From positions 1 through 64,000 of the forward strand of contig JAKSYS010000083.1 in NCBI GenBank assembly GCA_022925895.1: 64,000 nt of DNA, given 5' to 3'. Positions within the stretch are counted from its first letter, which is position 1. The number at the start of each line of letters is the position of its first letter. The position numbers and the translations under genes were made by a program. Of this stretch, positions 4,801-33,394 are shown piece after piece. This DNA is from Fragilaria crotonensis. Taxonomy: Eukaryota; Bacillariophyta; Fragilariophyceae; Fragilariales; Fragilariaceae. The notes under the pieces are model-generated. The model was not told where the DNA came from. It did no database searches and saw only the letters and a list, made by a program, of their open reading frames with translations.

Positions 4801-5011
4801 AAGGAGGAGGGCGATTGTGCTTCCGTGACAACTGATGTAACATCTTTACAATGTTACGGCGATGTTGACGTATTATGCTTTCTTTCAGAGGAGTGATGTT
4901 GGCTGGGCTGTCATCGGCGTCATTTTCTGAAGTTGTCCTGGATGATGCAACTGTTAATGTTGTAGGGAATATGCAAAACAGAAGAAACACTACTCGCTTT
5001 CTGAAACTCAT
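1821..5011 (-). CDS. Signal-peptide protein kinase / C2H2 zinc finger / PP2C phosphatase fusion (one frame break)
   Basis: The frame opening at 5011 begins with a signal-like N-terminus (RKRVVFLLFCIFPTTL) and runs about 150 residues to a TGA overlapping an ATG at 4550 in the next frame. Adding one A at 4550-4551 joins both into a 1063-residue protein. Downstream come a kinase domain with a glycine-rich loop (GFAGGSHGDVW), HRDIKPSN, DFS in place of DFG, and SPPEAL; then a C2H2 finger (CPKCGRNF...HAHANSRKH); then a complete PP2C domain (VFDGHTGN, SGTTATI, SVGDSRAI, LASDGLWDVM, STDNIGVSV). Kinase and phosphatase on one chain is rare; plants have one kinase/PP2C-like family. The catalytic motifs look intact, so both activities are plausible. 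The substrate is unknown. If the upstream frame is a separate gene, the kinase/PP2C part is 909 residues from 4550. The joined model is an inference. Confidence 0.72.
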
Positions 5012-5544
5012 TCTTGTGGAAATGGATGACGACGGCGGTGATGCTTCAAGATGAAATCAGCATGGTGGATGTAAATGGAAGACTAATGCAGACGCCAGTA
5101 TAGATTTGTTGATGTTGTGTCGTGAGTTGTGTGGGACGAACGGCGCACGGCACGAGGACGAGTTGCGTTTTGAAGTCTGTTGCTGTGTTGCTGTGCCTGT
5201 GCTCTTGGGAACAGTACAACAGTACAATACCCAGTACTCGCCAGATACAGTACTGCACCTGGTACACTGTACCGAGTAGACCTATGCTCCGCCTATCCTC
5301 ATTCCGACAGTGGTGGTAGTAGGAGGATGTAGCCGGTAGTAGTACAATATAGGCATATAGGATTACAGGCTACTGAGTACTAGTGTACTACTACTGGAGT
5401 ACCGTTCATGGTAGGAGTGTGGTACTGTACTACCCGGTAGTGCTTGCGCACGGCGTTTCCAGACCATTTATTCCCCATCACAGTCGTCGTCTCAAAATCA
5501 CCTTGGAGATTAACAATAGGAGCGACCGCACTATAACGTAAACA
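5012..5544. other. Divergent promoter spacer, GTAC island
   Basis: Spacer between the divergent kinase/PP2C gene and AK6. No gene seen. Between 5213 and 5430 there are 12 GTAC palindromes, where fewer than one is expected by chance. Confidence 0.55.
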
Positions 5545-6385
5545 ATGAGTGATTCGGACCAAGAGCAAGTTGAGATTGACGGTACAAGTCCAGCCACCCG
5601 AAGGAGACCTTTCATTCTCCTCACAGGGACTCCTGGGGTAGGCAAGACTGCCACGGCGTCGTTACTCATGGTACGTTCATGAATGTAACGTTAAACCCTT
5701 GTCGTCTGTCTCCACTCTAGAGCAGTTTTGACAAAGAGGCTGTGAGGCAGGATGATCCAGTGGTTGATTGTCGCGTGCACTCTCGGAAAAACATTGGACA
5801 TGGTCTCCTTCTCATGCCATTGATTTCTTTTTCAACACAAACCCTCTTCTATACTGCGCTTATCATCGTTTTGATCGTCTTCACTGGTCCCTCGACAACG
5901 CTCTACCTACTGTATAGGAAAAAACTGGTTTCGAGCACATTTGTGTCGGAGACGTGGTACGGGAACACAAATTTTACGACGGTCGTGACGACGAATTAGA
6001 TTCGTACTATCTTGATGAGGACAAACTGCTGGATCACCTAGAGGTAGTATTCAAAGAACACGAGGACACGGGCATCATTTGCGATTATCACGCCTGCGAA
6101 TTGTTCCCGGAACGGTGGTTCGATCTGGTGCTGGTATTGCGTACCAGTACGAGTGTGCTGTTTGATCGAATGACGAAACGAGGATATTCGGACTTGAAAC
6201 GAGACCAAAATATGGAGTGTGAAATCATGCAAGTCGTGCTGGAGGAAGCCAAGGAAAATTATGCGTCAGAGATTGTGCACGAAGTTACCTCAGATACCAT
6301 TGAAGATATGAATGCTAACGTTGAAAGAGTGCAAGCGTGGATTCAACAATGGATTTTGGATCAAGAAAAGGGGCACAAAACGTGA
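5545..6385 (+). CDS. AK6: Adenylate kinase isoenzyme 6 (hCINAP/Fap7 family), two exons
   Basis: Exon 1 is 5545-5670 and ends after the P-loop GTPGVGKT (residues 28-35). The intron is 5671-5917 (GTACGT...TATAG, 247 bases). Exon 2 is 5918-6385. The spliced protein has 197 residues, against about 172 in human AK6; the extra is an N-terminal extension. Across the junction the spacing from P-loop to the HICVGDVVRE motif matches the family exactly. Further family motifs follow: YYLDEDKLLDHL, IICDYHACELFPERW, LVLRTSTSVLFDRM and CEIMQVVLEEA. AK6/Fap7 is a nuclear and cytosolic ATPase/adenylate kinase needed for late maturation of the small ribosomal subunit, acting with the uS11 protein. The intron phase and the family match make this one of the surest calls here. 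Confidence 0.93.
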
Positions 6386-6914
6386 AATAACAACTGAACT
6401 GGCATCGTTTTTTAAAGTATCAGATCCAACTTTCAATGATAGAATAGCAGCACTCCAACGTCGCCGATTATCCTGAGTGTTGTCCACAGCAGAATTTTCC
6501 TTGTTGTTCCACCAGAAACCTCCTCCCTAGTCGTCATTCTTCCTTGTTTACGTCTCAAGTTAGCTTTGTTTCTCCTTCGATTGCGCAATCTCCTTTCGCA
6601 CCAAAACGAACCAAAGGCCAAACACAACCACGTGGAAAGCAAGAGCCACGCCCAATACTATTTGTATTTGGAAAGGCAAACCATCGATGGCAGATAGAAA
6701 ATTCACCATTTGATTTTTATCTGCGATATGTGTGTGAGACGTATTGGCTTATGGCAGCAATATTTGTGTCAGGCGTCAAGCAAGCAGTGAATGATAACGA
6801 CGAAATAAAGATTGTACTGAGTGTGTTTACACAAAGTGAAAGCCTTCGTTGGTGTGGGTTTTGTTGTCGTGTGTCGAAATTAGAAATCGGTATGCTGTTC
6901 GCAAGTCGCAAGCT
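6386..6914. other. Intergenic, nothing recognised
   Basis: Between AK6 and the inverted-repeat element. It includes an open frame of about 124 codons (6544-6918) without a recognisable domain or family motif, which I do not call as a gene. Confidence 0.4.
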
Positions 6915-8385
6915 CTAGTGTCTAAACGCCCGGGGGGGTTTCTTTAATTAACGACAAAGTTGTCTTTTTTTAAAGATGGGCATTTTCGTACGTTTTGCAA
7001 GACGGTCAGTGTACACATTGTACCATGAACAACACAAAATTTAACATCGACAATGGCCGACCACCGGCATCAATATCATCACACATCTAGTGCTAGATTC
7101 ATCAATGATCAATTATAACCTATTCATTATTAACTGTAGAAGCTTTGTAGGTGGGTCAGAATTTGTAACTTTTGTTTTCTGGTGCAGAATCCGAATTGTC
7201 GTGGGAACTCAAAAGCATGTTCATACCGGGAGCACTTGAGCTAACCAAAGTCCATTTATCTCCTGTTCTATCACTGAGTCCATGAAGAAGCAGAGCTTCA
7301 GGCTTCTCTCATTGTTGGTCATGGGTAGTTGTGTAACAACAGCTGCAGTTTTCTTCGTCTCCTGGCTGTCCTGTCGATGCCGCTAGTATGAGTACTTCTG
7401 ATGCCAGCACTATTGTCTCACTTCATCTTGGTTTGGCGGCAATGAATGTTGTGTTGTTGTGGCTGTGGTGGCTCATTTGTAGCAGAATTCCGCGACGCGG
7501 AAACACTGTTGGATCATAACGCGAGAAAGGAATGCTCCTCGCTTCGAGTTCATCGTGCCCTGCTGCTGCAAAGCATTCAACATCATCCCTGACAGTCACC
7601 ATATGTATTCTTTTTTTGTTTACCACATTTGCAACAGAGTTATGGTTGGTGACGATTAATGTCATCGGGTTGAACTTTGGACTGGATCACAACAAACTCG
7701 GTACCACTTTCGAATCGGCATTTTTGCTTCCAGCAATGCGGTATCTGGGAGCTCAGAGGACAAGTCAAACATCACCTTTTCTTCCAATAATACAACAATA
7801 CAAGGTATCGGGTCATCTGGTTGGATTTGCATGGTCAATACAAGCGCTATACGCAACAAACGAAGTGAGAAATGGGGTGTGAATGAAACAGTGCCGGATG
7901 ACAAAAAAACTCGACTGAAATTTGTTCTCACAACTCAACAAATAACAAAAATTAGAGATTCTCGCCAGCTACATACCTTTTGTTTAAAGCACGTTCAAGA
8001 CAATTGCACTGATGCGTTATGGCTCAATCAAAATCAAAGATGATGAAGTCGATGCATGAATTGAGGCCTCATACGACAAGATTTTGTGTGGCCTGCGTAG
8101 GTCATGTACTATACATCCGGGGAAACCGTGTTATTTTTGCACCTAAAAAACCCGTGAAAAATTGGATCCAGTTTTACGTTCATGAACATAGGTCAGGAAC
8201 TATCGCTTACTAAGACATCCCCATTTGGCCCATGAGGTTTAACTCAATGGAGAACACGTTTACCGTGTTAATTTTGATGTACAAGGTGAAATGAGGAAGT
8301 TGAGTAAGGACCGAAATTGATCTTTAATTAAAGATTTTGCCAGTGGGCCATCTTTAATTAAATACAACGGGCGTTTAGACACTAG
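6915..8385. mobile_element. Non-autonomous DNA transposon with 18-bp terminal inverted repeats
   Basis: The sequence CTAGTGTCTAAACGCCCG at 6915-6932 is repeated perfectly in inverted orientation at 8368-8385, giving a 1471-base unit. Copies of TCTTTAATTAA lie near the ends (6941, 8321, 8351). The interior has no credible gene. Because CTAG is itself palindromic, the outermost TA may be a target duplication, as in Tc1/mariner elements, with the true terminus starting GTGTCTAAACGC. The superfamily is an inference; the inverted repeat is seen directly. Confidence 0.72.
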
Positions 8386-9351
8386 TAGTGGTGGACAGTT
8401 GTGGGTTAGTTGTTGTTGTGCCGTTTTGGAATTGTTGTTTTTTATTCGCAACTCGCAGCTGGTGTAGGCTGCTCGTATACTAGAGTACTGGAGTACTTGT
8501 ATGGAGTATATCAGTATATCGTATCAATACGACTACCGGCTACCGGTAGAGCACACTGCTTGATGAGGGAATCTGTCAGCCGGTCATAGGCGACTCTTCA
8601 ACTCCATCTGCCAGCTGCTTTCTTTGGTTTTCGTTCCTATTCCTGTCAACGTAGATCAATCCTTGCAATAAACAAGTACAGAATTATCCATTGGCCAAAC
8701 TTTGAACGTACGCATATGTAGTACGTAGTGCTACAGGAGGGTACCGTTCTGTACTTCGTGCGAGATGTCACAGCGAAATCACAAAACGATATTTGCAACG
8801 ATTCAATTCCATCACTACGTTTCGGTGAAATGCCAGAATTTCCTCGTTTAAACGTTGATACGTGCTGATCCTCAGAAGACATAAATACGTTGAATGGAAC
8901 TTCCGAACGGAGGTACTACTATGTCATACTCGAAGTACCCTGGGTGCTATACAACGCAGGACTCTGGACTGCCAAGTTCCACGTAGTTGTACGTGGCACT
9001 TGAACTTTGAACTAAATACGCAGAATGTCCGCTTACGTCATTCATGGTTCCACCTATGACAGATTCGGACACCTGAGTACGCCTGAGTTTGTTTCAAATC
9101 GAACCAATCGGAACGCTTCAACCAATTGAAAACTCGGGAGTACCATAAAAAGACCGCATCGTGAATAATGGTGACACATAAACACACATCGCAGACGGAC
9201 TTCTTGCGAGTTCCGAACCTTTGGGAGGTGCCGGTACGATAGGACAAAGCAGAAGGAGGCCATGATAAAGTATGTTACAGAATTATCATCACCTGAAATA
9301 GCAGTATACTGGAGTAATCAACAAGCATGAAGGTCGTGCCCTCCTCCACGA
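8386..9351. other. Intergenic, GTAC-rich, no gene recognised
   Basis: About 970 bases between the inverted-repeat element and the 3' end of the heat-shock-factor gene. It contains AGTACT/GTAC-rich stretches near 8480-8530 and 8700-8760. Short open frames on both strands have no family features. Confidence 0.45.
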
Positions 9352-10460: not shown

Positions 10461-13372
10461 GTGTGGAAGTGGTGACAACAGAATGACTTGCGTCTTCCGT
10501 CTTTCGCTGTGATTTCGTTCGTGTGGTCAGCTTCAAACGGCATGAGTTGGCGAACCATGATTTACTGTCGTTCTCGTGGAAATGTACAGAAGCGATACTG
10601 CTGAAACCCCTTCCAGTGGATTAACTACTGACGTCTGCCAGGTGTCGCGAATTTTCCAGGATAAAGACATCAATGTGCAAGAGCACAAGTACCGGTATAC
10701 GCATTTATCCAATTTAAAAAAGGGCAGTTCAAGGGGCACACGGTCCCGCAGACTGGCACATGACTGCATTGGGACCATGGGTGTGTCATTCGGTAATGCA
10801 GGCATCGGGAAAGGTCAAACCGATACTACTCTTAAATTAGGCAGACCCGGGTACACCCACGCAAAAGTTGAAGCACGTTCAAACTTGATACTGCAGGGAA
10901 CGTACACATAATTAACGCATTTGCAGGGCAAACTACATAACTGAGAGGAGAAGCTTCGTCCTCACGTCCTCTCACTGGAGACTGGAGGAGATGGATTGGC
11001 CGGAGAGCGACAACAGTAGACAGTAGACTCACTCTCTCCACTTGCAAGTAGTAGTAGCGTACATGCAATATACAGTACGTCCATGTTCTGTATGATACAA
11101 ATATCCGTTCTCCTGACAACGTCACGACCTCGATATCCTTACGTGTTGTAAACTCTCTTAGTAGTAGAGCACGTACTGTATAACTGTATATCTGGAAGTC
11201 TGGAAGTGACAAGGTAGACTACAGTACTCCAGTACACGCTATCAGGCCCAAGGGTTATGACGTTATGACTTTCGGTGGTGTGCCTAAGATACAATCATGT
11301 CTCCTTGTATCAAAGATAAAGAGAGCTGTCCCGGTTATAATACATAATACATAAGTGAATTCCCTGCATTTTTTACCACTAAAAAATGCAACACTTGTTG
11401 GCGTGCTTAACATTCCTGCTGCTGGCATACTGCTGTTATTTCACATTTGCCATGTACCATGTTATGAAGAGCAACTTGTACTGGAGGAGGCAGGCTTTGT
11501 GTCACCAATGACACTGCCATTTCTATTGGAGCAGCAGTTGAAGTACAACTTGAGCATTCAAGGACTCAAGCGCGAAACAGCAAAAGAAAATGTGGATCAG
11601 ACATAGAGGGCATGATTGTTGTCATTTTAAAACCTACAAATAAAGTGGCGGATTGTTTGCGGATTGTTTGCGGACTGTTTTGAGTTTGTTCTCATGTTTG
11701 TCTGCTGCAGAGGAAGGCACCCCAATGAAGTTCTTCCATACGTTCTTCCATACTTGTGACCATGATATAATTTATTTGAGTTGTCAGTTTTCCATGGTCC
11801 TTCTTCATATGCCAGGTACTGGCTGAAAAACGGACAGACCATCAGCACACATTTGTGTATGTGCAAAGTACATGATGCGCCACATGAACTTCTTCCAGTT
11901 GTTTGGCAACATACACGTGATGCTGAGTAGCTACTCCGAGGACCTCGGATAATACCTCTGCGGTCTAAGCAGCCATGAAACCACATCGTATTCTTTCCTT
12001 TCCCCCGCATTGGATAGTGCCCTCCTACAATCCAGTAAACGACCGAGCGAGAAAATGAATCGTATGCATTGCAATCAATGCATAAAAATATGGTGTGCCC
12101 AATGTCCAAACAGCATTGGGGTACATGTTGGCATTTGTCACCTTGTTTGCCTCTAATCGATTGCGTGCTTCATCTGCTCAGTACATCTATTGCATGTAAG
12201 TCATCATCAATCAATTACTACTACACTCTTCACTGGCTAGTATTCCCAACTGCTGGTATTCCAGCACCTCGTCATGTCAAATAGTCAACCCTGATGGCAT
12301 CACTCCTTGGACTTTGTCAGCACTACAGCATAATGAACAACAAGAATATACACGTGCAAGAAGGGAGTTTTTAGGCTTTAGAATCATGAGCTATCAAGAA
12401 ATGACAATTTAGTACTTACCACCCAACAATTGTCGACATTATTGATGAATTCAGGTAAAATGGTATTCAAGATTGAAGTGCAGCCAGGTGTTGGTGCTGC
12501 AGATATTGGTAACAGTGGTGGACAGGGGCACGACTGTACAGACAGCATCTGTCTGGGATGTACTACTCTGAGTACTGCAGAAGATAGGCTGAAAACTGTG
12601 GCTGCTAGGCATGCTGTTGTACAGTTGCTGGTGAGAACAGTGCAGGGATTCAAAACTAGTAAGTGAAACAATTTTGCAATTTCTTACCTGCAAGGTTCTC
12701 CTTGCCCGAGAAGCTGCACAGATCATCAAGCTTCACTAGAGGCCTGTGTAGTTAACAATCAAGAAGGCCATGGGCAAGATTCCTTTAGTGCTCATGCCTG
12801 ACATTGTGAACAATTTGAATGACCTGGTGATGAAAATGGAGTTGCTTCTTGAGAACAAGTAATAGTAGTCATGCAAACAACAGCCAAGGTGCATCACAAT
12901 GATTGGGATGTTTCCAGCATGTTGGCAAAGTGCTAGTTGAACAGGAAGATGATAAAGAAATGAGCACAGAGTACAAGTAGAAGGGGCAGGTACCCATCAC
13001 AGCAACCCATGATGTGAACCTGCCTTGCGCTGAAGATCTGAAATGCCTTTGTGGAAAATGGTGGTGCTGCATTCCATTGGGAACTGTGCCTTTGACAACA
13101 TCATTGTTGTCATGGTCCACCAGCACATACAGTTATTGAGGTCGTCCCAGCAGCAGGAAGCATTGATGACATAGTAGAACTATTCTCCAACAGCAAAGAT
13201 AAATAGTGGCTGCTGTTGCGTAACAGCCTGTAACTAGTTCTTTTGTTGCAGTATTGCAGTTTTACTTTTCATTTGTCAAACATGTATGATGATGAGAACA
13301 TAACTGAGAAACAGAATATGAAATTGAAACAGCACACAACATGACAAGAGGACTGCCACCATGTGAACCCTC
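10461..13372. other. Gene-poor repeat-like region
   Basis: Nearly 3 kb with no recognisable protein. The longest frame (minus, 11627-12109, about 160 codons) has no family motif, and neighbouring frames show only scattered open fragments. A short tandem of GCGGATTGTTT units lies near 11648-11680. The composition is patchy and the region abuts the left terminus of the large transposon. It may be an older, decayed element. Nothing here can be named. Confidence 0.4.
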
Positions 13373-13426
13373 CATCAGAAGGTGGGTTTTTGTATCACTG
13401 ACAATATATGTTAACTATTTGTTAAG
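13373..13426 (+). repeat. Left terminal inverted repeat of the large transposon
   Basis: A 14-base terminal block (CATCAGAAGGTGGG), then a 19-base insert absent from the right end, then a 21-base subterminal block that matches the right end with one mismatch. Confidence 0.8.
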
Positions 13427-13907
13427 AAGTTGTAATATGTTGCTTGAAGTCACGTATATGTTATCACTATTTGTATGTATTTAGTCATTCTATACTGCGA
13501 CATTTCTCAGAGTCATATACTGTGGCAAAATATATTTATATTAAACCAATGTGTGTTACCTAGTAGCATCTATGCGTATAACTTACCTTAACAGTTGCAA
13601 ATGTAACAATGTTTCTCTAAACATTTTTACTTTATACTGAATACATGTGGTAAGAGTATCGCATGTGGCTCATTAAATTGTTTGTTCTGAACAGACTCTA
13701 GATATTCATACGCCATATACATTTAAGCCATGTTTTTACGACCATCCATTGTTTGGTATTGGTTTGCGAAATTTTCAAGCTTTTGGTTTTGGGGGAGACG
13801 AGCATTTTATGAACCAACCATTTCTTGTCTCCTTCCAAATATACGCTTACGTGGGAACAAAATTGTGATATTTTGTCTTAACTCCACACACACTCTCATC
13901 CAACAAG

Positions 13908-16900
13908 ATGGTAACACCTGATCATTGTACGGTTTGCAACAAGAGTTTCAAGAGACTTTTGCACCACCTTAATCAGAGTTTGGCATGTAAATCTCATTAC
14001 ATGGCAAGTGACAAAGCAGCAACAACAGTGCCCTCCATTGTATCAAACATCGGCCACGTGAAAACCGGTAATTTGTTGCAAGGTGGTACTTCTCGCACTT
14101 TCCGTCCAAATTTGAGTTCTCCTTTGTCCGATGGATTGCTTCCAGTATTGGAGAGTGGGGGAATTGCTGGAAAGGCCGACGATGAGCTGCGTGTTGAAGA
14201 TGTCAACGAAGTCGATGACTACATTATGTTTGACGACGACGGTATTCCCGAGCAAGGCGATGCTGACGATCAAGACATTTCAGAAACTGAATCGGAGGAA
14301 GGTCCTGATCTCAGCGTTTTGGATTTGTACTTAAAACTGTTCGCTGCGAGCAAACCCGCTCGGTCTTGCGCGTTTTCTCGGGAGGAAAGAGTCCAAATTG
14401 AGTTGTTGCAGCTTCTTAGGGATCTGAAGTGTCCTCTCAAAGCATTCACCCTAGTACTTAAGTGGGCTGCTAAATCAAACGGGAGCGGCCATTCATTCCG
14501 TGAGGGATTTCAACCAACTCGTGAGAAGGTGATCGCAAATTTATTTGAAAGGTACAACATGAAAGGATTAATCCCGAAAGAGAAGAAATTGTACCTGCCT
14601 TATACACAGAGGACCGTCTCGTTGATATTCTTTGACGCCAGTGAAGTATTCGCATCGCTACTCTCATGTCCCACGCTCAATCAAGATGGGAATTATTTCT
14701 TTGACAAAGCAAAGGATCCATTTGTTGCACCAGAAACATCATCCCACGTGGGTGACATCCACACAGGCCGTTGCTACAGAAAGACATACGACGCCCTGAT
14801 TAAGAAGCCTGATGTCGACATGCTCCTCCCCTGTATCATGGCAATGGACAAGACATACATCGACATGGCAGGCAGACTCAGATGGAGCCAATAACAATCT
14901 CTCATGGTCTTCTGAACCACTCAATACGTCGGCTCCCAATTGCCATGCGAATCCTCGGATACATCAATCACAGCACCCCGCCCATCTCCCTTCAGATTCC
15001 GAAATAGATGCCGAGTTCAATGCACCCGCTGACTTGCCAAAGGGGACCGCCCGTGTTGAAGACCCGCTTCGGTGCCCCAAAGACGTAAGTTGGTCAACGT
15101 TAATCCTGAACGAGACACACATGCAGATCCAGTTCATCCTAGAGGAATCCGGTTTTTGAGATTACAGAATCATGGTTTCCGATGGGATCTTAGCTACAAT
15201 GGAAAGATCCACCCCGTCGTGTTCCACCCGTATGTACCCTTCATCATCGGTGACACAGAGGGCACGACCGTCTTTGTGGTCACTACACCGCCCGATTTTC
15301 ACAGATACAACAGCTTTGTCGCATCTGCGAATGTCCCACGTACTTGAGTGGTTATTCCAAGTCCAACTTTCGCCACCGTGTTCCCAAAAATCGATGCTCT
15401 TGTGAGTAAGGGCCACACCGTTGAGCTCCAGTTGCTGTCCCAGAACTATCTTAAGAATGGATTCGCTGAGGTTAGGTTTGGTCTCCACAATCAGCGCGGA
15501 ATATTTGGAGCCTGCCCAGGCGAAATGCTCCATTTGATTTCCCTCGGTTGGTTTAAATATTGCCTGCAGGCCTTCTCAGCCCAAGCTGGTCCCAATTCAA
15601 ACGCATTGAAACAATACGATGTGCTGTGCGCTAAGTTGGGCAGATCATTGTCCAGACAGAGCGATCGCGACATCCCCGAACGAACTTCCCAAGGGGTTTT
15701 CATCAGGATCCAATCTGATGGGGCACGAGATGACAGGGTGTCTTTTAGTCACATTATTTGCACTGCACACCACCTACTTCCGAGGCATCTTCGAGGTTGG
15801 GAAAAAGGTAGCTGTAGTAGGGGATGACCAGAGGTTTCGTTATGAAAACCACATTCAAGATTGGATAGGAGTTGTTACATCTCTCCTGGTGTGGCACCAA
15901 TGGATGAAACAACCGATGATGTCAAAGAAGATGGTCAAGCGTTCGCACACCTGCTTGCAGTGGCTGATGCGTGTTGTCGCCGAAGTGGCGCCCGTCCAGG
16001 AGCAATGGGAAACAATACGATCAAGACGCACTTGGTACTGCATCTGTGCGAAGACATCCTTGACCACGGTGTTCCCGACAACGTGAACAGCGCCTACGCT
16101 GAGTCAGCTCACATCCCACTCGCGAAGGCGACATCCCGAAACACACAGAAGCGAGCCATATCCTTCACAAAACAAGCAGCCAATCGCTATACTGAAAATT
16201 TAGTCATTTCACTCGCTTCTACAGACGTAGAGAATGACGTCAAACGCAACGTCGACAGCAGTGCAGCTGACGTTGACACCCGCTCTCCGATGGTAAGGGT
16301 GGTCGTCGTTTTTACCTTGCATGGGAGGAAGGCAATGAACGCGCCACATTTCGCTGGACTCGCCCGCGCTCCGGAGACAACTTGGAGATGGCCCATCTTT
16401 CGCACCGAGTAACGGCCTTTCTGAGTCGACATTGCCTGCCCAAAATGCCGAAGGGAGAGCTCCCATGCTTCACGTCCTTCAACGACGAGGACGGCAACAA
16501 TTACCGCGCCCATCCTTGCTACGACGGCAAGGCATGGAACGATTACGCGATGATCGAGTGGGAAGGGTACCCACAACCCGAACCGGTGTTCATCCACACG
16601 TTCGTTGACCTCCGCGGGCTTCCGAAGGAGACTCCATTGACATCAACTCGAATGGACAGACAAAATTGACAGCCGGGTTGTACGCCGTCGCCCACTCCTT
16701 CAATCCAGTTGACGAAGGTGACCTCAACACACCGAACACCCTCATAGGTCATTATACCCCACATTTCCATTCCTTTAACGACAGACATCCAACCCTCTTC
16801 CTGGTGGATGTTGAGTCCATAAGGTCACCGGTACTAGGTATTCCAGATGTTCAATTTGGAGTGAAACCTCCAATGAACGAGCGGCATTACCTGTTCCTGA

Positions 16901-17292
16901 TCCGTCGCAAAGCAGAGTGGCCCCGTGCGTGGGATTCCCTCATAAACAGGTGCCACCATGATTTGGAACATGACGTCGACGATGACACCTGGTTTGAAGA
17001 GGAGTATGAGAAAGACGAATTGATCAACCGCCTGCCAAGTGGTAGGGAAATTTACAGTGTCAAGACCCCAGAAGACTTCGCTGCGGAGGTAGCCGCGGAA
17101 AAAGCCGAAAAGGTTGCCACCAAGAAGAAGAAGGAGCACGCCGCCGCAGAGAAAGCATCCGCGAAGGCCGCGAAGGCCGCCGAAAACCCAGGCAAGAAGT
17201 CGAGTGCCCCAGCGTCCACCGCACAACGTTTGGCGGGAAACTTTAAACGCAAACGGGTGGCCCCAGCGAAGACGGGTAAGGGTAGCCAGTAG
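13908..17292 (+). pseudogene. Plavaka-like DDE transposase, multiply frameshifted
   Basis: The first frame (13908-14894) opens with a zinc-finger-like CTVCNKSF...LACKSHY and an acidic linker. It then reaches LLPCIMAMDKTYIDMAGRL, which resembles the region holding the first catalytic Asp in Plavaka-type transposases. A base is missing at about 14880; the other frame continues MEPITISHGLLNHSIRRLP. Further pieces follow in changing frames near 15000, 15280, 15690 and 15870: FGACPGEMLHLISLGWFKYCL, FPKGFSSGSNLMGHEMTGCL, KTHLVLHLCEDILDHGVPDN and TQKRAISFTKQAANRY. The tail (16666-17292) is Lys/Ala-rich and basic. Together they give about 1,100 codons in one order with no missing block, so the gene decayed recently or carries sequence errors. 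The stop lies 21 bases from the convergent oxygenase stop. The family name is from memory of motif patterns; a related KDZ-type family is the alternative. Confidence 0.68.
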
Positions 17293-17313
17293 GCAGTCCC
17301 CAAGTGTTGTCAG

Positions 17314-18648
17314 CTAGGAAACTCCGCAGTAGTAGTAGAACCAGTAATCAAAGTTGAACATGTTTACTTTTTGTTTCTTCGGTATCTTGTATCGTCCACC
17401 AACCTCCAGGTCAGCGAGTTGCACCTGCCAGCCACCGAAAGTCAAGCTGTCACCGGCTGAACGTCCATCTCCCTTCCGTCCACCCACGCAGGGTGTTCCG
17501 GCACTCACCGCCACGTTTGGTTTTCGAGAACCAAAATGCAGCTCACCACCACCGCCACCAACGGCTCCGTCCTCCCGCCCGTCCGCACGGGACGGCGAAT
17601 CACCAACATCACGCTCCCGTTTGCCAGAACGGAATCGCCGCACGGCATCGGAACCTTCCGAACACAGCGGCAGCCCGATGTCAAGGAGCTCGACAGCCGC
17701 CTCCTCAGCAGACGCCAACCCGCCGGCTTGCCAACCGGGCTCCGTGGCCGCGGCACCCCCGGCTTCAACCCGAGGGCTGCCCCTCCGGCGGGGTCTCCTC
17801 CCCCTCTTCTTTTGTCGCTTCCTGCTAGCTCTCTTCGAGCCAGCCGGAGAGGGCGCCCCGGGGGGACAGTAACCGGCAGCACACGAGGCCCGTCCAGCCT
17901 TCACAATTTTCTCCTTTGCAGCCGTGAACGTTCCGTAAAGATGGTTCCGGAAGGAAGAGTCCCTCCCCCTGGTCACAAACCCGAATTCCTTCCCATCCGG
18001 ACAGGAAACAGACGTGCAGTGTCGGACAACTCTGCCATCCCAGCTGATGGCCACACCATGGCCAAGCTTCACCGCCATGCCGTGGAACTTGGTTCTTCCA
18101 TCTGGTCTTACGCCGTGTACGTTGGGGAGAACGAAGTACCAGTTCTCCCCACAGCCCGGCACTTCCTCGGTCCACAAACTGAAACCTTGCGAGGCGTCGT
18201 TCACGTCAAAGTGCGACGAATTCCCGAGGTTGACGCTCATGTCCACGGTGTACCCAACCCGTTGGCGACGTTCCAGCATCTCCATTCTCTCCCGAAGATT
18301 CTCACGCACGTTACCGCGATTGTAGTTGACGACGTCAACGTCACAATTGTCATCGTCACCGTCATCGTTGTCGTTGTCGTCGTCACAATCGACAACGTTC
18401 CCATCACCAGCACCCCCGCCGTTGACCGTCGGAAGGACGACGCCGTCCATCGGCGAAACCGGACTCAAACCGGAGTTCCCCTCGGTGTCCCTTACAACGG
18501 AGTACACCTGCGGGAAGCAACGACTCCCAAGGATCGCCAAGTCAACCTTCTTCTTCCCAGCCTTCTTCGTCCCAACCTTCCGTTCCCCATCCCTCCCGTC
18601 CACGACCACCTTTTCCACAGCATCAACGCCACGTCGATCGGGCGACAT
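17314..18648 (-). CDS. Putative 2-oxoglutarate/Fe(II)-dependent oxygenase encoded by the transposon
   Basis: An intact 444-residue frame from an ATG at 18648. The first 130 residues are low complexity, with a basic stretch and an Asp/Asn-rich run. Residues 130-245 look like the core of a double-stranded beta-helix oxygenase: SSHFDVNDASQGFSLWTEE gives an HxD pair (H146, D148), WYFVLPNVHG is a central strand, and KLGHGVAISWDGRVVRHCTS supplies the distal His (H197) followed by Arg (R206/R209) suited to 2-oxoglutarate. A very basic Arg/Gly/Pro-rich tail follows and may bind nucleic acid. TET/JBP-type oxygenases are known to travel with KDZ and Plavaka transposons in fungi, so modification of DNA bases is a reasonable guess, but the sequence does not prove it. 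A longer frame on the opposite strand is its shadow. Confidence 0.66.
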   Translation of the reverse strand: MSPDRRGVDAVEKVVVDGRDGERKVGTKKAGKKKVDLAILGSRCFPQVYSVVRDTEGNSGLSPVSPMDGVVLPTVNGGGAGDGNVVDCDDDNDNDDGDDDNCDVDVVNYNRGNVRENLRERMEMLERRQRVGYTVDMSVNLGNSSHFDVNDASQGFSLWTEEVPGCGENWYFVLPNVHGVRPDGRTKFHGMAVKLGHGVAISWDGRVVRHCTSVSCPDGKEFGFVTRGRDSSFRNHLYGTFTAAKEKIVKAGRASCAAGYCPPGAPSPAGSKRASRKRQKKRGRRPRRRGSPRVEAGGAAATEPGWQAGGLASAEEAAVELLDIGLPLCSEGSDAVRRFRSGKRERDVGDSPSRADGREDGAVGGGGGELHFGSRKPNVAVSAGTPCVGGRKGDGRSAGDSLTFGGWQVQLADLEVGGRYKIPKKQKVNMFNFDYWFYYYCGVS

Positions 18649-19786
18649 CGGGCTCTCTCCTGCTTCCTGGCAGGTGAAGGCCGCGCAATGCCTGTTCCAA
18701 CCTCACAACAACCAGCCACAGAGGATGGTTGTCGCGAGCGCGCGCTCTCCAACAAAGACAATCAACACGCAATCCTGGCGTGGACTATCTATTTGTTGAA
18801 AAGTCAGCGAGAACTATCCGACGGCGACGTGATGATGTTGCAACAAACAACCAAAACAAGAGTACTTCATGAGAGTACTCTGTCATCAGATTGTGCTTTT
18901 TTGGTGTCACCATTCACCAAAGGTACTAAAAAGCAGCAAAATCGACGTACTGTAAGTACTATGGCGAATGTAGGGCATTTTGCACCTGGGACTTCTTTCC
19001 AAGACCTCTAAATGCAGCATATATATGTTATTGATGTATATAACATTGAATTACGTTATATACACATCCATCGATTATAATAAAATTATGTATTTAGTTA
19101 AATGAAAAAGTAATTACAGTACATAGCATTTTCATGTATAGATGATACATTCGTTTCCCAGGACAGGACTACATACTGGTACAGGTACACTATACTGCAC
19201 CAGTACGTAGCAACAAATCAGTACGAACGCAAAAATTTAATGCTTGCTCAATACATGGATGTACATATATATGTAATTTACATCATGTATGCATACGCAC
19301 CACGACACCTTGAATGATTACCAAGAACTAGCTGCCGGTATAAGAACACTGGTGTTGCATACTCCGAGTACGACAACTACTGGTAGTGAAACAAGATTGC
19401 GAGTACGTCAACGCAAAAACAAGACTGCAGTGATCATCATGTCATAAATAATTTTATAGTCACACATATTCATACAAGTATATAAACGGAAAATGTGGGA
19501 AGCTAAATAGTGAACATGTAAGTGCATTTAAAAAAATAAACGACTTGCACATGTTTTGTGAATATAAGTAGTAAGCGATACATTTTTTGTATAAGTCATG
19601 TACAGGTAGAAAATGAACAAACAGGGACAACTCATACAATTTTGAAAACTGGTGGGAGATTCAAAATCCCAAATTCATCACCCAAAATTACAAGTCGTCT
19701 CATACTTGCTGCAAATTGATACAACCACTGAGACCGCTATTCTAACCCTTGCTTGCTTCTTCTTACATTTTGATTCATTCGTCCTC
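18649..19786. other. AT-rich internal spacer of the transposon
   Basis: It separates the divergently transcribed oxygenase and accessory genes, so it probably contains both promoters. Around 19015-19065 a near-palindrome of ATATATGTTATTGATG/TATATAACA type is visible. No gene recognised. Confidence 0.45.
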
Positions 19787-21527
19787 ATGCCGAAAACATC
19801 TCCAACTAAGCAACCTTCAGTGGCTAGTACTCGGACCACGCCTCCACGCGCGACCAAGACCAAGACGAAGAACGCCGAACTTGACACACCGACAACAAGA
19901 GCCAAGAGGAATGAGATGGCGGCACAGCAAAAGGCTGAAGCTGCTAAAGCTGCTAAAGCTGCTGCTAAAGCAGCTGCTAAGAAAGCAGCGGCTAAATCTG
20001 CGGCTAAATCTGCGGCTAAATCTGCCGCTAAATCTGCGGCTAAATCTGCAGCTAAATCTGTTAAAGCATCGACGACTGCAGTTAACCCGGACCCACCAGT
20101 GCAGATCGCGACAGCAGTTAACCCAGACCCAGTGCAGATCACTGCAAAGGGACGCAAACGACGTGTTGTTCCTCCTCGTGGTAAGAAGAAGAGGAGGAAA
20201 GTGGCACCAAAAAAGGTGGTGGTGGTGAGCAGAAGGAGCGCTCCTGAGGAAATTGATGACTCCTCTTACTCAGTTGAAGAGGTTGACGATGAAGAGTTTG
20301 AAGAGGTTGACGATGAAGAGTCCGAATCAGATGATGACAGGGAGGATGAGGGGAAAAGTAATGCGGGTGATGACAACAACGTGGTGACACATGACATGTC
20401 AGATGATGACGACTCTGTTCTCAGAATGGATCAGTTTGTTAGAGATGTCGGGAAAACAGCAATGGATGCAAGACGACGTCTTGGTCAGGAGTTGAACCAC
20501 TGTGCCCAGGAAGGCGCGGAGGATCCTCCAGATGACAATGATACTCCAACGGCGAAGAAGAAGGTGTCGTCTACGCATGTTCAGCACGATGATTGCGATG
20601 ACAATGAGTCCAATGCGCCGCCACGAGAAGAGAAGCACGTGAGAAATCGAATTGTGATATACGTCAAAAACGAGTTGTTCCGTCGATGTAAGTTTGTTAA
20701 CAGTCCAGTAATGTTCCGAAGGGCGTTTCGAAAGGTGCTTGAAATCGAAAAGCCAAAAAAATCATTTCCTTTTTCAGTTGACATACGAGAAATGTTTCAA
20801 TACAGCGTTGAACCAGAAAAGGAGTACGTGTGAACAAGCTGGTCTCAGAATTGTTCGGGGCGCAATCAATAAGGATTTCAAAAAACGCGGCGAAGACTTC
20901 TTCACGTTTGAAGAATTCTGTAAGCTTAGGACAGCAACAACAGACAGGGAGAAAAGGGCCTTCTTCTTCTTCTTCAATAACTTCTTGGAGTGTGTATGTG
21001 GTGCAAATGCGTGGAGAATCGCGAAGAAAACAATGCTTGTATCGGAGGCGCGGCACAGCGACAATTCGAAAATGGTAACAACAAGTGACGAAGCGTTTGG
21101 ATTGTTGCTGATTGACAACTATTTGGAAAAATGGAAAACCGGCACGGAGTTGGTTGACGAAGACAACCCAACGGAAGCAGATGATGGGCAGAATATGACG
21201 ACGAAGAAAACAAAGAGACAAGCGGGAAAGTACACTGAAAAGAAAAAAGGAACCTGCAAGTATGGTGGGTGGAGCGATGACGGAATAAGACAGTTCAATG
21301 CACTGCGCATAATGGTTAAAGAGAACAGGGCATGCCCGCAGTCAAAAGACATGGAACGTGAGCTGCTGGCATTCTGCAGGACACGGGCAGGATTGAAGAA
21401 TGCCCGTGGCGATGAGCGGCAAGAACAGCACGACGGTACTGGTGCTGACAACAATGCATTGGAAACAGCGGTAGCAAAGGTACCTGTGGAGGCAGCATGG
21501 GACTCGGATGACGAAAATGAGTCGTAG
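19787..21527 (+). CDS. Transposon accessory protein with AAKS repeats and acidic middle (one frame break)
   Basis: The ATG at 19787 starts a basic N-terminus with histone-H1-like tandem AAKS units (about residues 60-90) and clusters of Arg/Lys. A strongly acidic segment (VDDEEFEEVDDEESESDDD) follows, then a globular part. The frame ends at 20833, but the next frame carries on from about 20778 with LTYEKCFNTALNQKRSTCEQ and stays open to 21527. Removing one base from the A7 run at 20755-20761 gives one 579-residue product. The C-terminal part contains EDFFTFEEFCKLR, a hydrophobic patch with FLECVCGANAW and KYGGWSDDGIRQFNAL. I do not know a characterised relative. Its position inside the inverted termini suggests a role in transposition or DNA binding. 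A 90-base GTAAGT...CAG candidate intron (20688-20777) keeps the original frame and does not explain the break. Confidence 0.6.
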
Positions 21528-21924
21528 TTGCTTGTGATTGCGACAGCTGCTGCTGGCAGCCATAGTTCATTAAATGCATTAAAATGGTGAATGTTATGAA
21601 AACAAATGGCTAGGTTGATACAATGTATGCTGAAATGAGAACACCGCAATGCGTAAAGAACAAATATATATGGTGACTTGGCAAAATATATGTCCAAGGT
21701 ATAGCATGATATCGCCATATGTGATTTTTTATAACTATTTCATTTAAACAAATATGTTGACAAACTATTTGATATGTAACAATATGTGTCACATTGTGAA
21801 TACAATATTGCACCTAAATTGTGAAAAGATACAATATATGTTTGAGACAACATATGTGTTAGCCACTTAACATACATGTGCAGAACTTGCGATAGGGATG
21901 TCATTATCCGGTAACAATTCAAAG

Positions 21925-21959
21925 CTTAAAAAATAGTTAACATATCCCACCTTCTGATG
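21925..21959 (-). repeat. Right terminal inverted repeat of the large transposon
   Basis: Inverted copy of the left end: the 14-base terminal block and the 21-base subterminal block are adjacent here, without the 19-base insert seen on the left. Confidence 0.8.
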
Positions 21960-22546
21960 TCCTCTTTCCTACCAAATTAAAGAACTGCAGGATTACTCGC
22001 CTCTCATTCAGGTAGGACCGCTGGGGCATGGTGCTGTATCAAATGGTATGGAGGAGTATTGATTAAATTGATAACAAGCAGCACCAGCAGCATGGTGTCA
22101 AAAGACGATACTACTGCTAGATGTGGAGTGCTGGTACTACGACTAGTACACCAGCAATCACTTTAGTCTATTGGGTCATTTGTTTCGGTGTTTTAGAGTT
22201 TAGTGTTTCAGCTTTCAGGCTTGTATGCGTAGTGTTGATATGTTGACGCATTTGTAAAATGTTGACCATTTTTTTGTTTTCTTTTTTTTCCATTTAAGGA
22301 CAATCCTAAGCAACAAAAATGTATGTTCGACTGTCGATCCGAGGATTCTGGATTCCCATGGTTTGACCAATTGGATTACGTTTGGATAACTTGAATTCTA
22401 CTATCAGCATACCTGGTAAAAGTACCGGACTCTCCTAGTAGTAGTAGTCGTACAAGGAGTAGTATAGTGGAGATCAAATATATCATGGATGTATGTTTGC
22501 ATATCTATTTATTTGTTTAAAGTTTAAATTCGAAACAAAACCCACC
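21960..22546. other. Intergenic, nothing recognised
   Basis: About 590 bases between the large transposon and the gag-like remnant. It contains several short GTAC/AGTA-rich stretches (22080-22150, 22410-22460) and a T-rich run near 22265-22290. Confidence 0.4.
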
Positions 22547-28334: not shown

Positions 28335-30579
28335 CTAAATTCTGAGATTGGGATTCAGGGTCCCATCGTTCTTTTGCTTTCTGATTCTGTTGATGATTAT
28401 TGTGACACTTGTCTGGTGTCCATAGATAGCATAAATGCTATCAATTGCTGCATCTGCAGTCATTCCACCACGCACTAAACCCGAAATAATCCGCCAAATC
28501 ACGAGTCGGCGGTGGTACTTGTACTTGCTCTTTCCACCCCTTTCCCTGCTAGTAAACAACCGAGCTGCCTTCCTCCTCCAATTCCGACTTGGTACTCCTG
28601 CCACAGTTCGAACAAATTGCGAGTTGGGCTCAGAACTGCTGGAGCTGCGCCCACTCCATTGAGTGTGGCGACCGCATCGACAGCCATGTCGTCATCATTG
28701 CCGCCCGTCGCCCTCGTCCTCCCTGTGCCACTGTACCCACGGGACCCCGTAAACCTGGTTGCAACGCGATCCTCCTGATGTTTGTATTCACCATAGTAAA
28801 GCCTTTGCGCGTTTCGACCCTATCAGCCATTTGGTTTGATCGCAACTCTTGAATCTCGCGCCGAATCTGACTCGCCAATGACTGAACTGCCAACAACTGC
28901 GCTGCTAATCCGCCAGCTGTTGATGCCATACCTCCTACCCCCCTTCCGCCAGTGCCACCGTTTGCAATACCAACGACTCCTCCCATTCCATCCACAACAC
29001 TTCCATTTTCATCAAGAGAAGGAATGATATCAATATTCACACAACCCTCGTCGCCCGTAATCACCACTGGCACTCTCTTTATAGGATTGTAAAAAGGACT
29101 GTTGCAATCGATTCCAGGATGCAAAGCCGATACGATTTCATTCCACTCAAGTCGAATCTGATCCTTAATGACCGTTGGAACGATCTCGTTTGCCGCATCA
29201 TAAGGTGAGTAAATCATCCAAAGCATTGCCTTACCAAGCACAAGCGACGCATCCTCTGACAACACCTTTCGAATATTTGGAACGACGTTGCTGAGGATGA
29301 AAGTCTTAAGCACAGGTGTCAACCCGGCGTCTCCAGCGCCAGCACCAACACCAGTAGTCGTCGCCAACAACTCATCAGGGAATAGGTAATAGCACGGACC
29401 GCCAATACACAACTTATCAGCAACCTTCGCGTCAGGAAAGGGCAATTCGACATCATCGTAAACATCTGAAACCCGCTTTGCCAACTTCCAGCGCCCGCGA
29501 ATGTCCTTATCATCCTTGTTTATTCCAGACCGTCGCACATGCGTTGACGCGAACTTACGAATTGAATGACTTCCCAATTTATCGTCGACAACACCACCAG
29601 CGAATTCGTCCATTCTGAATATTTTAGTAAAAGCATTGCCTGCAATCTCTTTTGATTTCTTACCTCCAGCAGGGACAGTGTTGTCGTTAGTAAAAGCAAA
29701 CACATAGGGGGAAAGCAAAGCATTTGGATTCGATCGAGCATGTAACTCCAACCACAAAGAGAGACAAGTGAGTACACAATATGTCGTATCCATTGCACCC
29801 AACACAATCTGCCACGGAGCATCTCGTTCCTCGGATACATTTTTCGACCAATTCATACGTGTCTTCAAAGCATTGGGATAAAAATCGTGAACCTGGATAT
29901 TTTCAATCAACACCTGTGTCGTATCGTCGATGCGGCCAATCATGTGAAACTGAAATTTTGTTAGACAGCTCAAACCATACTTCCATAGAAAGCTAGCATT
30001 GTTGCTCTGAAATATATGCTGCATCTTCTGAAACTCTTCTCGTGTTAGTGGACGTTTGACCTTTGAAGCCTTACCCTGCTTCCGGACCTCCTTTTTCTTC
30101 ACACGCCTGATAAGACTGTTCACTTCAATCGATCGTGTAGGATTCCCTTCGTTACGGCCCGACACCCATGCAGTCAAACGATCAGGCATAAAGAATGAAA
30201 GGGCCTTCTTCCAAAGCTCAAGGGAACTACTACGGCACTCTGTTGGGTTTGCATCTAAAGGAGGGTCAGGGTCATCGAAGGTTTTCACATTCATCCAAGC
30301 AACTACATCATCAGGTGTCAGAGCTCGCAATTCACCCTTTGTGTACTGGCGTTCCTTCCCATAATCAACTCCGTGGAAAAATGACATCAAACTGTCAAGG
30401 GAGGACTTGTAATCCAGTGCCACACCCTGAAGGGGTGGCACGGTGCTCGCAGCGAGTTCGTCATCGTCAGCGTAGGACACCATTTTTTGTGATCGACTCG
30501 TGTTCTCTGATCTTGTACGAAGAAATGCAAATTCTGACACACAGTCTGCTGGTGCTGGTGGATACCATATGGCATACAT
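28335..30579 (-). mobile_element. Crypton-like element: single tyrosine-recombinase gene, two frame breaks near the C-terminus
   Basis: The main frame is 30579-28630; the first ATG is at 30579 and a second likely start is MVSYADDDEL at 30483. The recombinase core has a helical N-terminal region (RPLTREEFQKMQHIF), then LGSHSIRKFASTHVRRSG, matching the HxxR box, then GRWK and VSDVYDD, where the catalytic Tyr is expected. GGPCYYLFPDEL follows. Two single-base losses (CCC at 28704-28706, and about 28570-28580) shift the frame; corrected, the protein continues with a DNA-binding-like end (NLFELWQEYQVGIGG, RKAARLFT, KYHRRLVIW) to 28335, 748 residues in all. The latter resembles the GCR1_C-type domain of Cryptons. 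Cryptons move by recombinase-catalysed integration and leave no inverted repeats; none are seen here. Confidence 0.75.
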
Positions 30580-31061: not shown

Positions 31062-33394
31062 ATGCAGGGAAATGAAGATTACGATCGTCGTGTCGTTCTG
31101 CATTTTGATGTCGATGCCATGTACGTGGCGTGCGAACGAGAGTTGAACCCTGACTTGCGAGGTGTTCCCGTTGGTGTATGCCAGTAAGTGAAACGGATCC
31201 GGTTCATGATGATCGGCTTCATCGTGTAATGTGTTGTTGTTCTTGTCAACTTGTCATTGTTCTGGATTCGGTTGTCATCGTTAACAATATGCGGAGATCA
31301 CAATGCAAGCGTCACTAACTCGTGATTGTAAACCATGCAATCTCCCTCTAAGATACAATCCTTTCGGAAAATTGCAAGAAACGAGTGCTAATGACGTTGA
31401 TCGACGCGTCATCATCCGGAATGGGACCATTCAATGTCACGACGACGCCAACGGGTCCTTGATAGCCGTCTCGTACGAAGCACGAGCTGCGGGAGTCAAA
31501 CGCAACGATCGAGGATTGGATGCAAGAATCAAGTGTCCCACCCTCACGATTGTTCAGGTTCCAGTCAAACGTGGCAAGGCAGATTTGTCGCTCTATCGGA
31601 GTGCCAGTGATCGAGTCTTTCAAGTACTCATTGATTCTATCGTCCAGTCCAAGTCGAATAATCCTACTCCGAGTTTAGTACAGGTAGAAATCGCCTCAAT
31701 CGATGAAGTCTATCTGGATGTCACCGACCTGTGCCAATTCATTTTGAACGATCAACACCATGATTGGGATTGCATCATATCAGTGGCCTCCAGTGTCACA
31801 ACGGTGGGTGGCATTGAGACCATGACCCAGGCGGCACATGTTGCCAATGCTCTCAAGAAGGATGAAGTGCGGAAGGGGTCAGCATGGCAAATCCGCGACA
31901 CCACGACCACACTGGATCCAGGTAGTTTGGAATGGTGGAATCGACGTCGAGAGGGATGGAACAATGGAGAACAAATGTTGGCCGTGGGGGCCTACTTGGC
32001 GGCAAGGGCTCGTGCGGCCATTCTAGATGCCTTTGAAGGTGTCTATACTCTCTCTGGAGGAATATCGTCCAATAAGACACTTGCCAAACTAGCGTCGGGA
32101 TTGAAAAAGCCGAATCGACAAACGCTGATACATCGAGGCAACCCAGTGGCTCTCGAGAACTATTTTATCCCCTTCCGTTGGATCGAATTCGTGGATTAGG
32201 GGTAAGCTGGGTGTCATGGTCGGTGAGAAATTGAATGTCACAACGCTGGGCCAATTGGCCCAAGTTTCCCTTGTGACGTTGACCAGTACCTTCTCAGACG
32301 ACATGGCAAGGTTTCTCTATGATATCGGAAGGGGTATTTGCCGGGATGCCGTGACGACACGGACTAAACCGAAGAGTATTTCCTGCGGCAAAACTTTTCG
32401 TGGCAAGTTGGCCATTACGGATTCTGAAAGGTTAAGAAAGTGGACCGAAGAGCTTTGTGAGGGCTTGTTGGAACGAGTCTCGGCTGATCGAGACCAACAC
32501 AATCGAATGCCGAAATTGTTAATGACAAGTATACATTTCAACTCGTCGGATAGTCATGTGTCCAAATCTGGCATGGCTCCGAGAAGTCTGGAATCCTTTT
32601 CCAAAGTTTGCGTCGATCTGATGGAAAAGCTAGCTGCTACGAAACCGGACACCCCTATTATTGGACTTACGGTTGCTGCAACCACCTTTGTGGATGTCGC
32701 CAAGGGGTCTGCCTCGATCACTGCAGCCTTCAATCGCACGGTTGCATCTGATAGTATCGGCTTAAGCAATGTATGCAATCCCCCAATGTCTGACCATGAA
32801 TCGAAACGAAGTGTCAAGCCAGCATCGGCCATGGATCAATGGCTGCAAAGTCAGAGCGCTGTCGACGAGAAGAAGGCGACGGACTGCAGAACAGTTTTCT
32901 CGAGCGTTGTCTCGCAAAAGGCAGATCGTCCAGGAGGGACGATACAGCGATTTCTGTCAAATCATTCTTTGACATCGCCCAGTAATGACTTGATGTGCGC
33001 TGATCAAGACATTGACCCGGAAGTCTGGAGGGAGTTACCGGAGGACGTTCGAATATCCTTGCAAAAGGAATGGGAAGCGATACCGCGGCGTCCGCTGCAA
33101 GCACGCCCGTCTGTTGCTTCGATAGCCAAGCGAACGTCACAAGCGAACTTCACGACAGCGCACGACATTGATCCAGAAGTTTGGAATGAGCTCCGGAGGA
33201 AATTCGATCATCGCTGCGCCGAGAGTTTGGAAAACAATCCAAGAAGGCTAGAACAGGGATTGCGTCTTTTTTCGTTCCTACCGAACGATGATGGATCATG
33301 TAATCGTTGTTTTGGAGCATTCGTTAAGAATATGAAGCGTAACAGGTTGGAGTACAAGTACTCCATTTACCACATTCCGCCTGTCGAATGGTGA
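31062..33394 (+). CDS. POLH: DNA polymerase eta (Y-family, Rad30), two exons, two frame breaks
   Basis: Exon 1 is 31062-31183 and carries VVLHFDVDAMYVACERELNP. The intron is 31184-31352 (GTAAGT...CTAAG, 169 bases). Exon 2 opens in frame with YNPFGKLQE, then SLIAVSYEARAAGVKRN, ASIDEVYLDVT (catalytic Asp-Glu) and SGGISSNKTLAKLASGLKKPNRQTLI. One C is missing at 32169-32172 and one G at 32199-32202. Across them the three frames spell LPLDRIRGLG and GKLGVM, the conserved helix-hairpin-helix region, which rules out an intron there. The corrected length is 721 residues. The C-terminus has a PIP-like GTIQRFLSNH and two ubiquitin-binding motifs (IDPEVWRELPEDVR and IDPEVWNELRRKF). Pol eta bypasses UV lesions at stalled, ubiquitinated PCNA. 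The motif set fits eta better than iota or kappa. Confidence 0.86.

Follow-up and report, generated by a model that had tools for sequence, protein, structure and literature searches.

Plavaka and KDZ transposases were reportedly linked with TET/JBP genes by Iyer et al. in 2014. Here we describe an element at positions 13373-21959 of a 64-kb stretch of DNA from Fragilaria crotonensis (64,000 nucleotides of contig JAKSYS010000083.1, the whole of which is called the window below). It had been predicted to be an 8.6-kb transposon carrying a transposase, a putative 2-oxoglutarate/Fe(II) (2OG-Fe(II)) oxygenase and a third gene. Judged by its ends, its target-site duplications and the domain and motifs of its transposase, the element is PlavakaB-like. 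On balance we favour the reading that it is a copy with an internal deletion that moved recently, the second protein of which is most likely a 2OG-Fe(II) oxygenase that acts on DNA marks of the element's copies.

The closest described systems are found in fungi. Some PlavakaB elements of Agaricomycetes carry TET/JBP dioxygenases (Kojima 2025, PMC12730594), and the TET+ Plavaka elements of that article all have CATCA..TGATG ends. The algal element resembles them in these ends, in its Plavaka-type DDE transposase, in the dioxygenase-like gene that it encloses and in its duplications, which are of 2 bp here and of 2-3 bp there (PMC12730594). It differs in its host, an alga and not a fungus, and in the presence of a third open reading frame (ORF3). 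The PE type, in which the abstract of that article places fungal Plavaka, carries HxE in place of HxD (PMC12730594); the protein described here has HxD, is 740-800 amino acids (aa) long and has no Tet_JBP profile match.

One TET/JBP module in unrelated transposons has been reported for fungi. The TET+ transposons of rust fungi, of PU type, comprise seven lineages, so that there, as here, one oxygenase or oxygenase-like family is found in several unrelated transposons of one genome (PMC12730594). In the alga, members of two Plavaka-type lineages and of a MULE family carry it; the abstract of that article does not list MULE/MuDR elements as carriers. Outside fungi, the anti-silencing protein of plant Vandal elements and a SET methyltransferase in Phytophthora MuDR are examples of MULEs with cargo presumed to be related to silencing (as cited in PMC12730594). 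Neither is oxygenase-like: one is a regulator and the other a histone methyltransferase. An EnSpm-Plavaka element of the green alga Auxenochlorella is also a Plavaka-type element in an alga, and no oxygenase is mentioned in the passage on it (PMC12633428). A search of the titles and abstract openings of open-access literature found no report of algal Plavaka or MULE elements that carry an oxygenase.

CMD1, a TET homologue of Chlamydomonas that makes 5gmC, and NgTET1 are DNA-modifying enzymes of algae and protists that share the HxD..H iron-site logic of the protein described here. They differ in that no sequence similarity to them was detected in PDB profile searches, and in that they are not described as parts of transposons.

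Boundaries, copies and transposase of the element

The stretch 13373-21959 represents a single insertion of a DNA transposon of the cut-and-paste kind. Its junctions read TC/CATCAG...CTGATG/TC, which gives a 2-bp target-site duplication. The features are listed below; related copies are named by their contig (C529 and so on).

13371-13372, no strand: left target-site duplication TC, identical 2 bp outside both ends
13373-13386, plus strand: left terminal inverted repeat CATCAGAAGGTGGG, exact 14-mer
13406-13426, plus strand: left subterminal 21-nt inverted block, 95% complementary to 21925-21945
13908-14894, plus strand: start of the transposase ORF, first 328 aa in frame, with a Cys/His stretch at the N-terminus (zinc-finger-like by eye) and AMDKT as the first conserved Asp
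14895-17292, plus strand: remainder of the transposase gene, in several frames (the breaks may be assembly indels); a single open frame in C529
17314-18648, minus strand: ORF of the oxygenase-like gene, a C-terminal 444-aa remnant; relatives have 741 aa (C529) and 801 aa (C137)
17890-18543, minus strand: core of the putative 2OG-Fe(II) domain, with H146, D148 (HxD), H197, R206, R209 and H210 invariant in 12/12 members
18550-18600, no strand: junction, placed approximately by alignment of copies, of the ~1.44-kb internal deletion that C39 also has
19787-20833, plus strand: N-terminal part of ORF3, with AAK/SAAK basic repeats and then an acidic stretch
20739-21527, plus strand: conserved C-terminal part of ORF3; ORF3 is a single frame of 571-585 aa in C30, C529 and C538
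21925-21945, minus strand: right subterminal 21-nt inverted block, which pairs with the left block 13406-13426
21946-21959, minus strand: right terminal inverted repeat, exact 14-mer CATCAGAAGGTGGG
21960-21961, no strand: right target-site duplication TC, the same 2 bp as the left flank

The boundaries of the original prediction are correct, since the junctions match and recur in other copies. The 14-base inverted ends are exact, the 21-base subterminal blocks pair as it had described, and the three genes (13908-17292, 17314-18648 and 19787-21527) lie wholly within one pair of inverted ends. Beyond the two ends, the window contains one further match to the 14-mer at up to 2 mismatches, at 29196 with 2.

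Copies were sought in the assembly to which the window belongs (62.1 Mb, 881 contigs). It contains CATCAGAAGGTGGG without mismatch at 44 places, which can be combined into 17 converging pairs 3.1-18.8 kb long. When one mismatch is allowed, the number of matches rises to 86+74, and a reversed control pattern gives 2+2 in the same assembly. The junctions of all 17 pairs were read, and identical 2-bp flanks are present at 15 of the 16 testable pairs, so the predicted boundaries are shared by other copies. The C538 pair was left out of this count, having a single base on its right side; the C367 pair, at a contig end, goes against the 2-bp rule with flanks CA/GA. The flanks of a related copy on C1 also differ (CG/CA). 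The contigs C411, C538 and C367 end 1-2 bases past a terminal repeat of an element; the repeats thus cause breaks in the assembly, and some copies have probably escaped the count.

Some relatives have long open frames. C529:17653-27776 is 10,124 bp long with CATCAGAAGGTGCG at both ends, and contains open frames for a transposase (1155 aa, plus strand), an oxygenase-like protein (741 aa, minus strand) and ORF3 (578 aa, plus strand). The C124 element is more distant (11,661 bp, with an oxygenase-like frame of 708 aa), and the C137 element has a third ORF in addition to an 820-aa transposase and an oxygenase-like frame of 801 aa. Their duplications are CA/CA in C529, TA/TA in C124 and TT/TT in C137, and CATCA..TGATG termini are present in these three, in the window copy and in the 16 further pairs.

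A profile comparison of the transposase with the Plavaka and KDZ types had been proposed, and it shows the protein to be Plavaka-like. PF18759 (Plavaka) matches the window ORF below its curated cut-off (E 5.6e-4, 19.7 bits, cut-off 26.3 bits) and scores above it in C529 (E 1.1e-7) and C30 (E 2.9e-7). KDZ gave no match and was set aside as unsupported; in the Pfam scans the ORFs of the element matched no transposase family other than Plavaka. Transposases of the CMCT clade have a D, D, E triad, and C(2)C and H(3-4)H lie between its second D and its E (PMC12730594). Catalytic residues were assigned here by motif: D327, D466, H733-x3-H737 and E757 are invariant in 4/4 aligned transposases, including a second lineage represented by C137. 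The C137 transposase is 24% identical to that of C529 and has no Pfam match. CxxC is present in 3/3 transposases of the window's lineage and is absent from C137.

The predicted 8.6-kb transposon is indeed one element; that length is not its full size. Five relatives are 9,996-10,093 bp long, and the window element, at 8,587 bp, is therefore a deleted copy. C39 is 8,570 bp long and C29 6,243 bp. The stretch absent from both the window copy and C39 covers alignment columns 5213-6690 (1,443 bp in the window copy against C251), and through this deletion the oxygenase-like gene has lost most of its N-terminal part. The two deleted copies sit at separate sites, with a target duplication of TC in the window and of TA in C39, so the deleted form itself has moved.

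The window copy and C251 share 8,561 matching bases with 7 substitutions, which points to recent activity. They differ by 33 indels (the large deletion included), 29 of which are of 1-2 bp, while an older pair, C21/C393, has 42 indels against 88 substitutions. This comparison suggests that the small indels of the window copy are assembly errors. Frame breaks in the window copy were considered as a sign of decay and this was dropped; the breaks are not trusted, because indels far outnumber substitutions between near-identical copies. The ~1.44-kb deletion common to the window and C39 is kept as real. Elsewhere in the window, genes for a Y-family polymerase (IMS, 31303-33394, plus strand) and a REV3-like polymerase (33858-39999, plus strand) each extend over two adjacent or overlapping ORFs; these splits are introns or, more likely, assembly indels.

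The oxygenase-like gene in two kinds of transposon

Loci were collected with two queries for the oxygenase-like gene, merged to 132 loci, two for the transposase (147 loci, 107 T1 and 40 T2, of the two lineages) and one for MULE proteins (60 loci). The matches entered were 89 of 106 for the first oxygenase query, 107 of 128 for T1, 114 of 151 for ORF3 (taken from the matches listed), 68 of 68 for the C124 oxygenase query, 96 of 105 for the MULE query and 71 of 71 for one further query; extra fragments of entered loci were omitted and nearby rows were then merged. The genome counts are lower bounds, yet they are inflated by contigs that may represent a second haplotype (C76, C137). C137 and C76 match at ~99% past the element ends, as a duplicated segment or as separately assembled haplotypes. 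The MULE query was an ORF of C707 with Peptidase_C48 above its cut-off and DBD_Tnp_Mut below, and a MULE match below means a relative of this ORF.

A Plavaka-type transposase is found within 8 kb of 85 of the 132 listed oxygenase-like loci, where about 4.9 such neighbours are expected by chance. At 83 of these 85 the oxygenase-like gene lies downstream of the transposase and in opposite orientation, so the genes keep a fixed arrangement. Counted from the transposase, an oxygenase-like gene in this usual arrangement is present within 8 kb of 64/107 T1 and 19/40 T2 loci; it is present in another arrangement at one T1 and two T2 loci, and no oxygenase match was found within 8 kb of 42/107 T1 and 19/40 T2 loci. 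With the first oxygenase query, 66/107 T1 loci had appeared to lack the gene, a number that fell to 42 once the C124 protein was added as a query; in C124 the usual slot holds a divergent oxygenase-like gene that the first query had missed. C29, a transposase locus without the gene, is a deletion derivative. ORF3 is present downstream of the transposase and in its orientation at 69/107 T1 loci, in another arrangement at 2, and was not found within 14 kb at 36.

The gene is also associated with MULE proteins. A MULE/Ulp1 relative of the C707 ORF lies within 3.3 kb, in divergent orientation, at 16/132 listed loci (about 2/132 are expected within 8 kb by chance), and at 27/132 no match to a Plavaka-type transposase or to a MULE protein lies within 8 kb. 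In C334 the oxygenase-like gene adjoins matches to the MuDR/MULE families PF03108 and PF10551, both below cut-off, and to the Ulp1 protease domain Peptidase_C48, above cut-off. It is enclosed by 488-bp inverted repeats that are 98.4% identical and have a 9-bp duplication, TTATAAATA; a duplication of about 9 bp is typical of MULEs. At C334 the oxygenase-like gene is inside a MULE. The gene arrangement is the same in C707 and C305.

In a tree of 15 rows, the three MULE-borne genes and a second oxygenase-like gene of C40, which has a MULE match 2.3 kb away, form a clade with support 99/97. This clade stands next to the C137 gene with 84/96, which is under the program's mark for strong support. 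The tree is compatible with exchange between transposon types and gives no direction for it.

Some loci contain additional genes or insertions. The C40 element (2031-8960) has a ~6.9-kb interruption of its transposase gene, which is probably a nested insertion. C124 has an extra gene region (concatenated 3995-6108, minus strand) with ORFs of 238 and 473 aa between the transposase and the oxygenase-like gene. In C34 an ORF for a eukaryotic RNA-dependent RNA polymerase (2396-3857, minus strand; PF05183, E 2e-18) lies ~1.2 kb from an oxygenase-like gene, which is an 856-aa frame with a long DDNY repeat; no terminal motif was found within the 9.9 kb examined.

Function of the oxygenase-like protein

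The domain pattern of the protein is GNxSHFDxxDxS...WTE...NWY...P...HGxxISWDGRxxRHxTS. As a motif, the HxD, the later H and the R are invariant in 12/12 aligned members and in 11/11 more diverse ones; the HxE hallmark of the PE type is absent from both sets. Taking H197 as the second iron ligand gives a D-to-H spacing of 47-49, and it is 48 in 6/6 phage Tet_JBP-like proteins, which are relatives of Mycobacterium phage Nigel gp2 (PF12851 E 4.3e-6, below cut-off). A long N-terminal region of the full protein is also conserved, and the C-terminal tails are basic, with runs of K and R.

Several observations weigh against reading this protein as an oxygenase of DNA marks. There are two candidate iron ligands (H197 and H210) and two candidate 2-oxoglutarate residues (R206 and R209). 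The profile comparison with 2OG-Fe(II) oxygenases that had been proposed for the second gene gave no support: in Pfam at E<=10, the matches of 8 members were to three unrelated families only, and 8/8 had no match to an oxygenase or to PF12851. Alignment to the phage Tet_JBP alignment with hhalign gave a probability of 0.1-0.2%, the matches of three PDB profile searches were judged to be chance (arenavirus glycoprotein, best E 0.0022), and two full-length members had no match in PHROGs and NCBIfam. Prediction for the truncated window protein, from a single sequence without an alignment, gave no usable fold (mean predicted local distance difference test score 33). The predicted tie of the oxygenase to the transposase holds at the 85 loci above and fails at 47/132, which have no Plavaka-type transposase within 8 kb; 16 loci lie beside MULE proteins.

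The data on methylation point both ways. In eight copies, singleton transitions are found at 17/7828 CpG sites against 28/26548 other C/G sites (ratio 2.06, p 0.021), but the form of this test that compares transitions with transversions is not significant (p 0.064). The observed/expected ratio of CpG is 0.88-1.00 in the eight copies, with no sign of heavy decay driven by methylation. Methylation pressure, if any, is therefore mild. In favour of an epigenetic role, the genome has 13 matches to the cytosine-5 methyltransferase family PF00145, some of which are pieces of one gene. A light-harvesting protein of the host matches FCPI-7 of the diatom complex PDB 6ly5 at E 7.3e-88, and cytosine methylation has been described in the diatom Phaeodactylum as confined to transposable elements (PMC12344493).

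A search of the assembly with PF12851 gave no match, and 14 control genomes likewise gave none. Relatives sought in viral contigs and in prokaryote genomes gave 21 and 15 pattern matches, respectively, none of which was confirmed. The PE type of fungi was itself recognised by Kojima only by HHpred at E 1.4 and by predicted structures (PMC12730594). Because the profile methods were all negative and HxE is absent, we do not class the protein as TET/JBP, and we put the chance that it may nevertheless work like a TET-type oxygenase at about even.

It is unlikely, though still a serious alternative, that the protein is a 2OG-Fe(II) oxygenase acting on another protein, such as a histone, the transposase or a host silencing factor. 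The motif is a generic one for this superfamily, Tet_JBP is not matched, and the long N-terminal region could bind a protein partner. The transposon-borne oxygenases described in fungi are of the TET/JBP kind (PMC12730594), and the HxD-to-H spacing with H197 equals that of the phage Tet_JBP-like proteins, both of which favour a DNA substrate.

We consider it equally improbable that the protein is no enzyme, the HxD..H residues being zinc ligands or a coincidence. It would then be a structural DNA-binding factor or a second transposition protein, for which TnpA of CACTA elements is a model. No library searched here recognises the protein, its C-terminal tails are basic, and it has a fixed place between the transposase and ORF3. 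However, the gene is also carried by the MULE family, which is moved by another transposase, so the protein is not tied to one transposition machinery. The basic/acidic ORF3 is the likelier TnpA-like factor, and the invariant block N.SH.D..D...HxxxISWDGRxxRH reads like the metal site of a beta-helix.

The oxygenase-like gene is under purifying selection and has been maintained in working order for a long time, because dN/dS (the ratio of nonsynonymous to synonymous substitution rates) is low and nonsynonymous differences are well below synonymous ones. In the four pairs with dS <1.2, dN/dS is 0.29 (window/C393), 0.09 (C334/C707), 0.19 (window/C30) and 0.22 (C30/C34). It is 0.07-0.22 for the core-domain pairs with computable dS other than window/C393 and C334/C707. 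Many pairs are saturated synonymously; outside these two close pairs, the proportion of synonymous differences is 0.58-0.86 and that of nonsynonymous differences 0.10-0.32. An open frame of at least 600 aa without a stop in the match is present at 18 of the 89 loci of the first oxygenase query.

That the gene is a functionless passenger spread by hitchhiking is very improbable: the shared deletion of the window copy and C39 at different sites, and the lack in C29 of alignment columns 2785-6609, which hold the gene, indicate that copies moved without an intact gene and that it is not needed in cis, but this explanation is already weakened by the substitution pattern just described, the long open frames and the occurrence of the gene in a MULE family as well as with two lineages of transposase.

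A mechanism can be proposed for the favoured reading, that the protein is an oxygenase of DNA marks. The family encodes three proteins: the DDE transposase, ORF3, and the 740-800 aa protein with its HxD..H..R oxygenase-like domain. The junctions show directly that the element inserts by its CATCA..TGATG ends and leaves 2-bp duplications. The oxygenase-like protein may then oxidise 5-methylcytosine or another base, by which the element would escape silencing. Because such a gene would pay any carrier transposon, it could be kept under selection and also be carried by the MULE family, whichever the direction of transfer.

ORF3, neighbouring sequence and significance

ORF3 is probably a DNA-binding or accessory factor. 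The third ORF of C137 has no tblastn match to ORF3 at E 1e-4. Outside the element, the window contains a 649-aa ORF at 28630-30579 on the minus strand with no Pfam match at E 0.01, and the same stretch holds the 2-mismatch 14-mer at 29196. We take this ORF, by resemblance, to be perhaps a Crypton-like tyrosine recombinase.

More broadly, we tentatively suggest, at somewhat less than even confidence, that transposons of diatom-like algae carry a hitherto unnamed family of oxygenases of DNA marks, separate from the PU, AG and PE types of fungi. This family may be a portable anti-silencing module, present in two Plavaka-type lineages and in MULEs at more than 100 loci of a 62-Mb genome. If the protein edits DNA marks, non-fungal transposons would also carry their own oxidative mark eraser, as one module in unrelated transposons. 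The alga would then be a testable system, having candidate cytosine methyltransferase genes and over 100 loci of the candidate eraser, some with full frames. Whatever its chemistry, a conserved family of 740-800 aa that is found in Plavaka-type elements and MULEs, with no match here in Pfam, PHROGs or NCBIfam, is worth naming.

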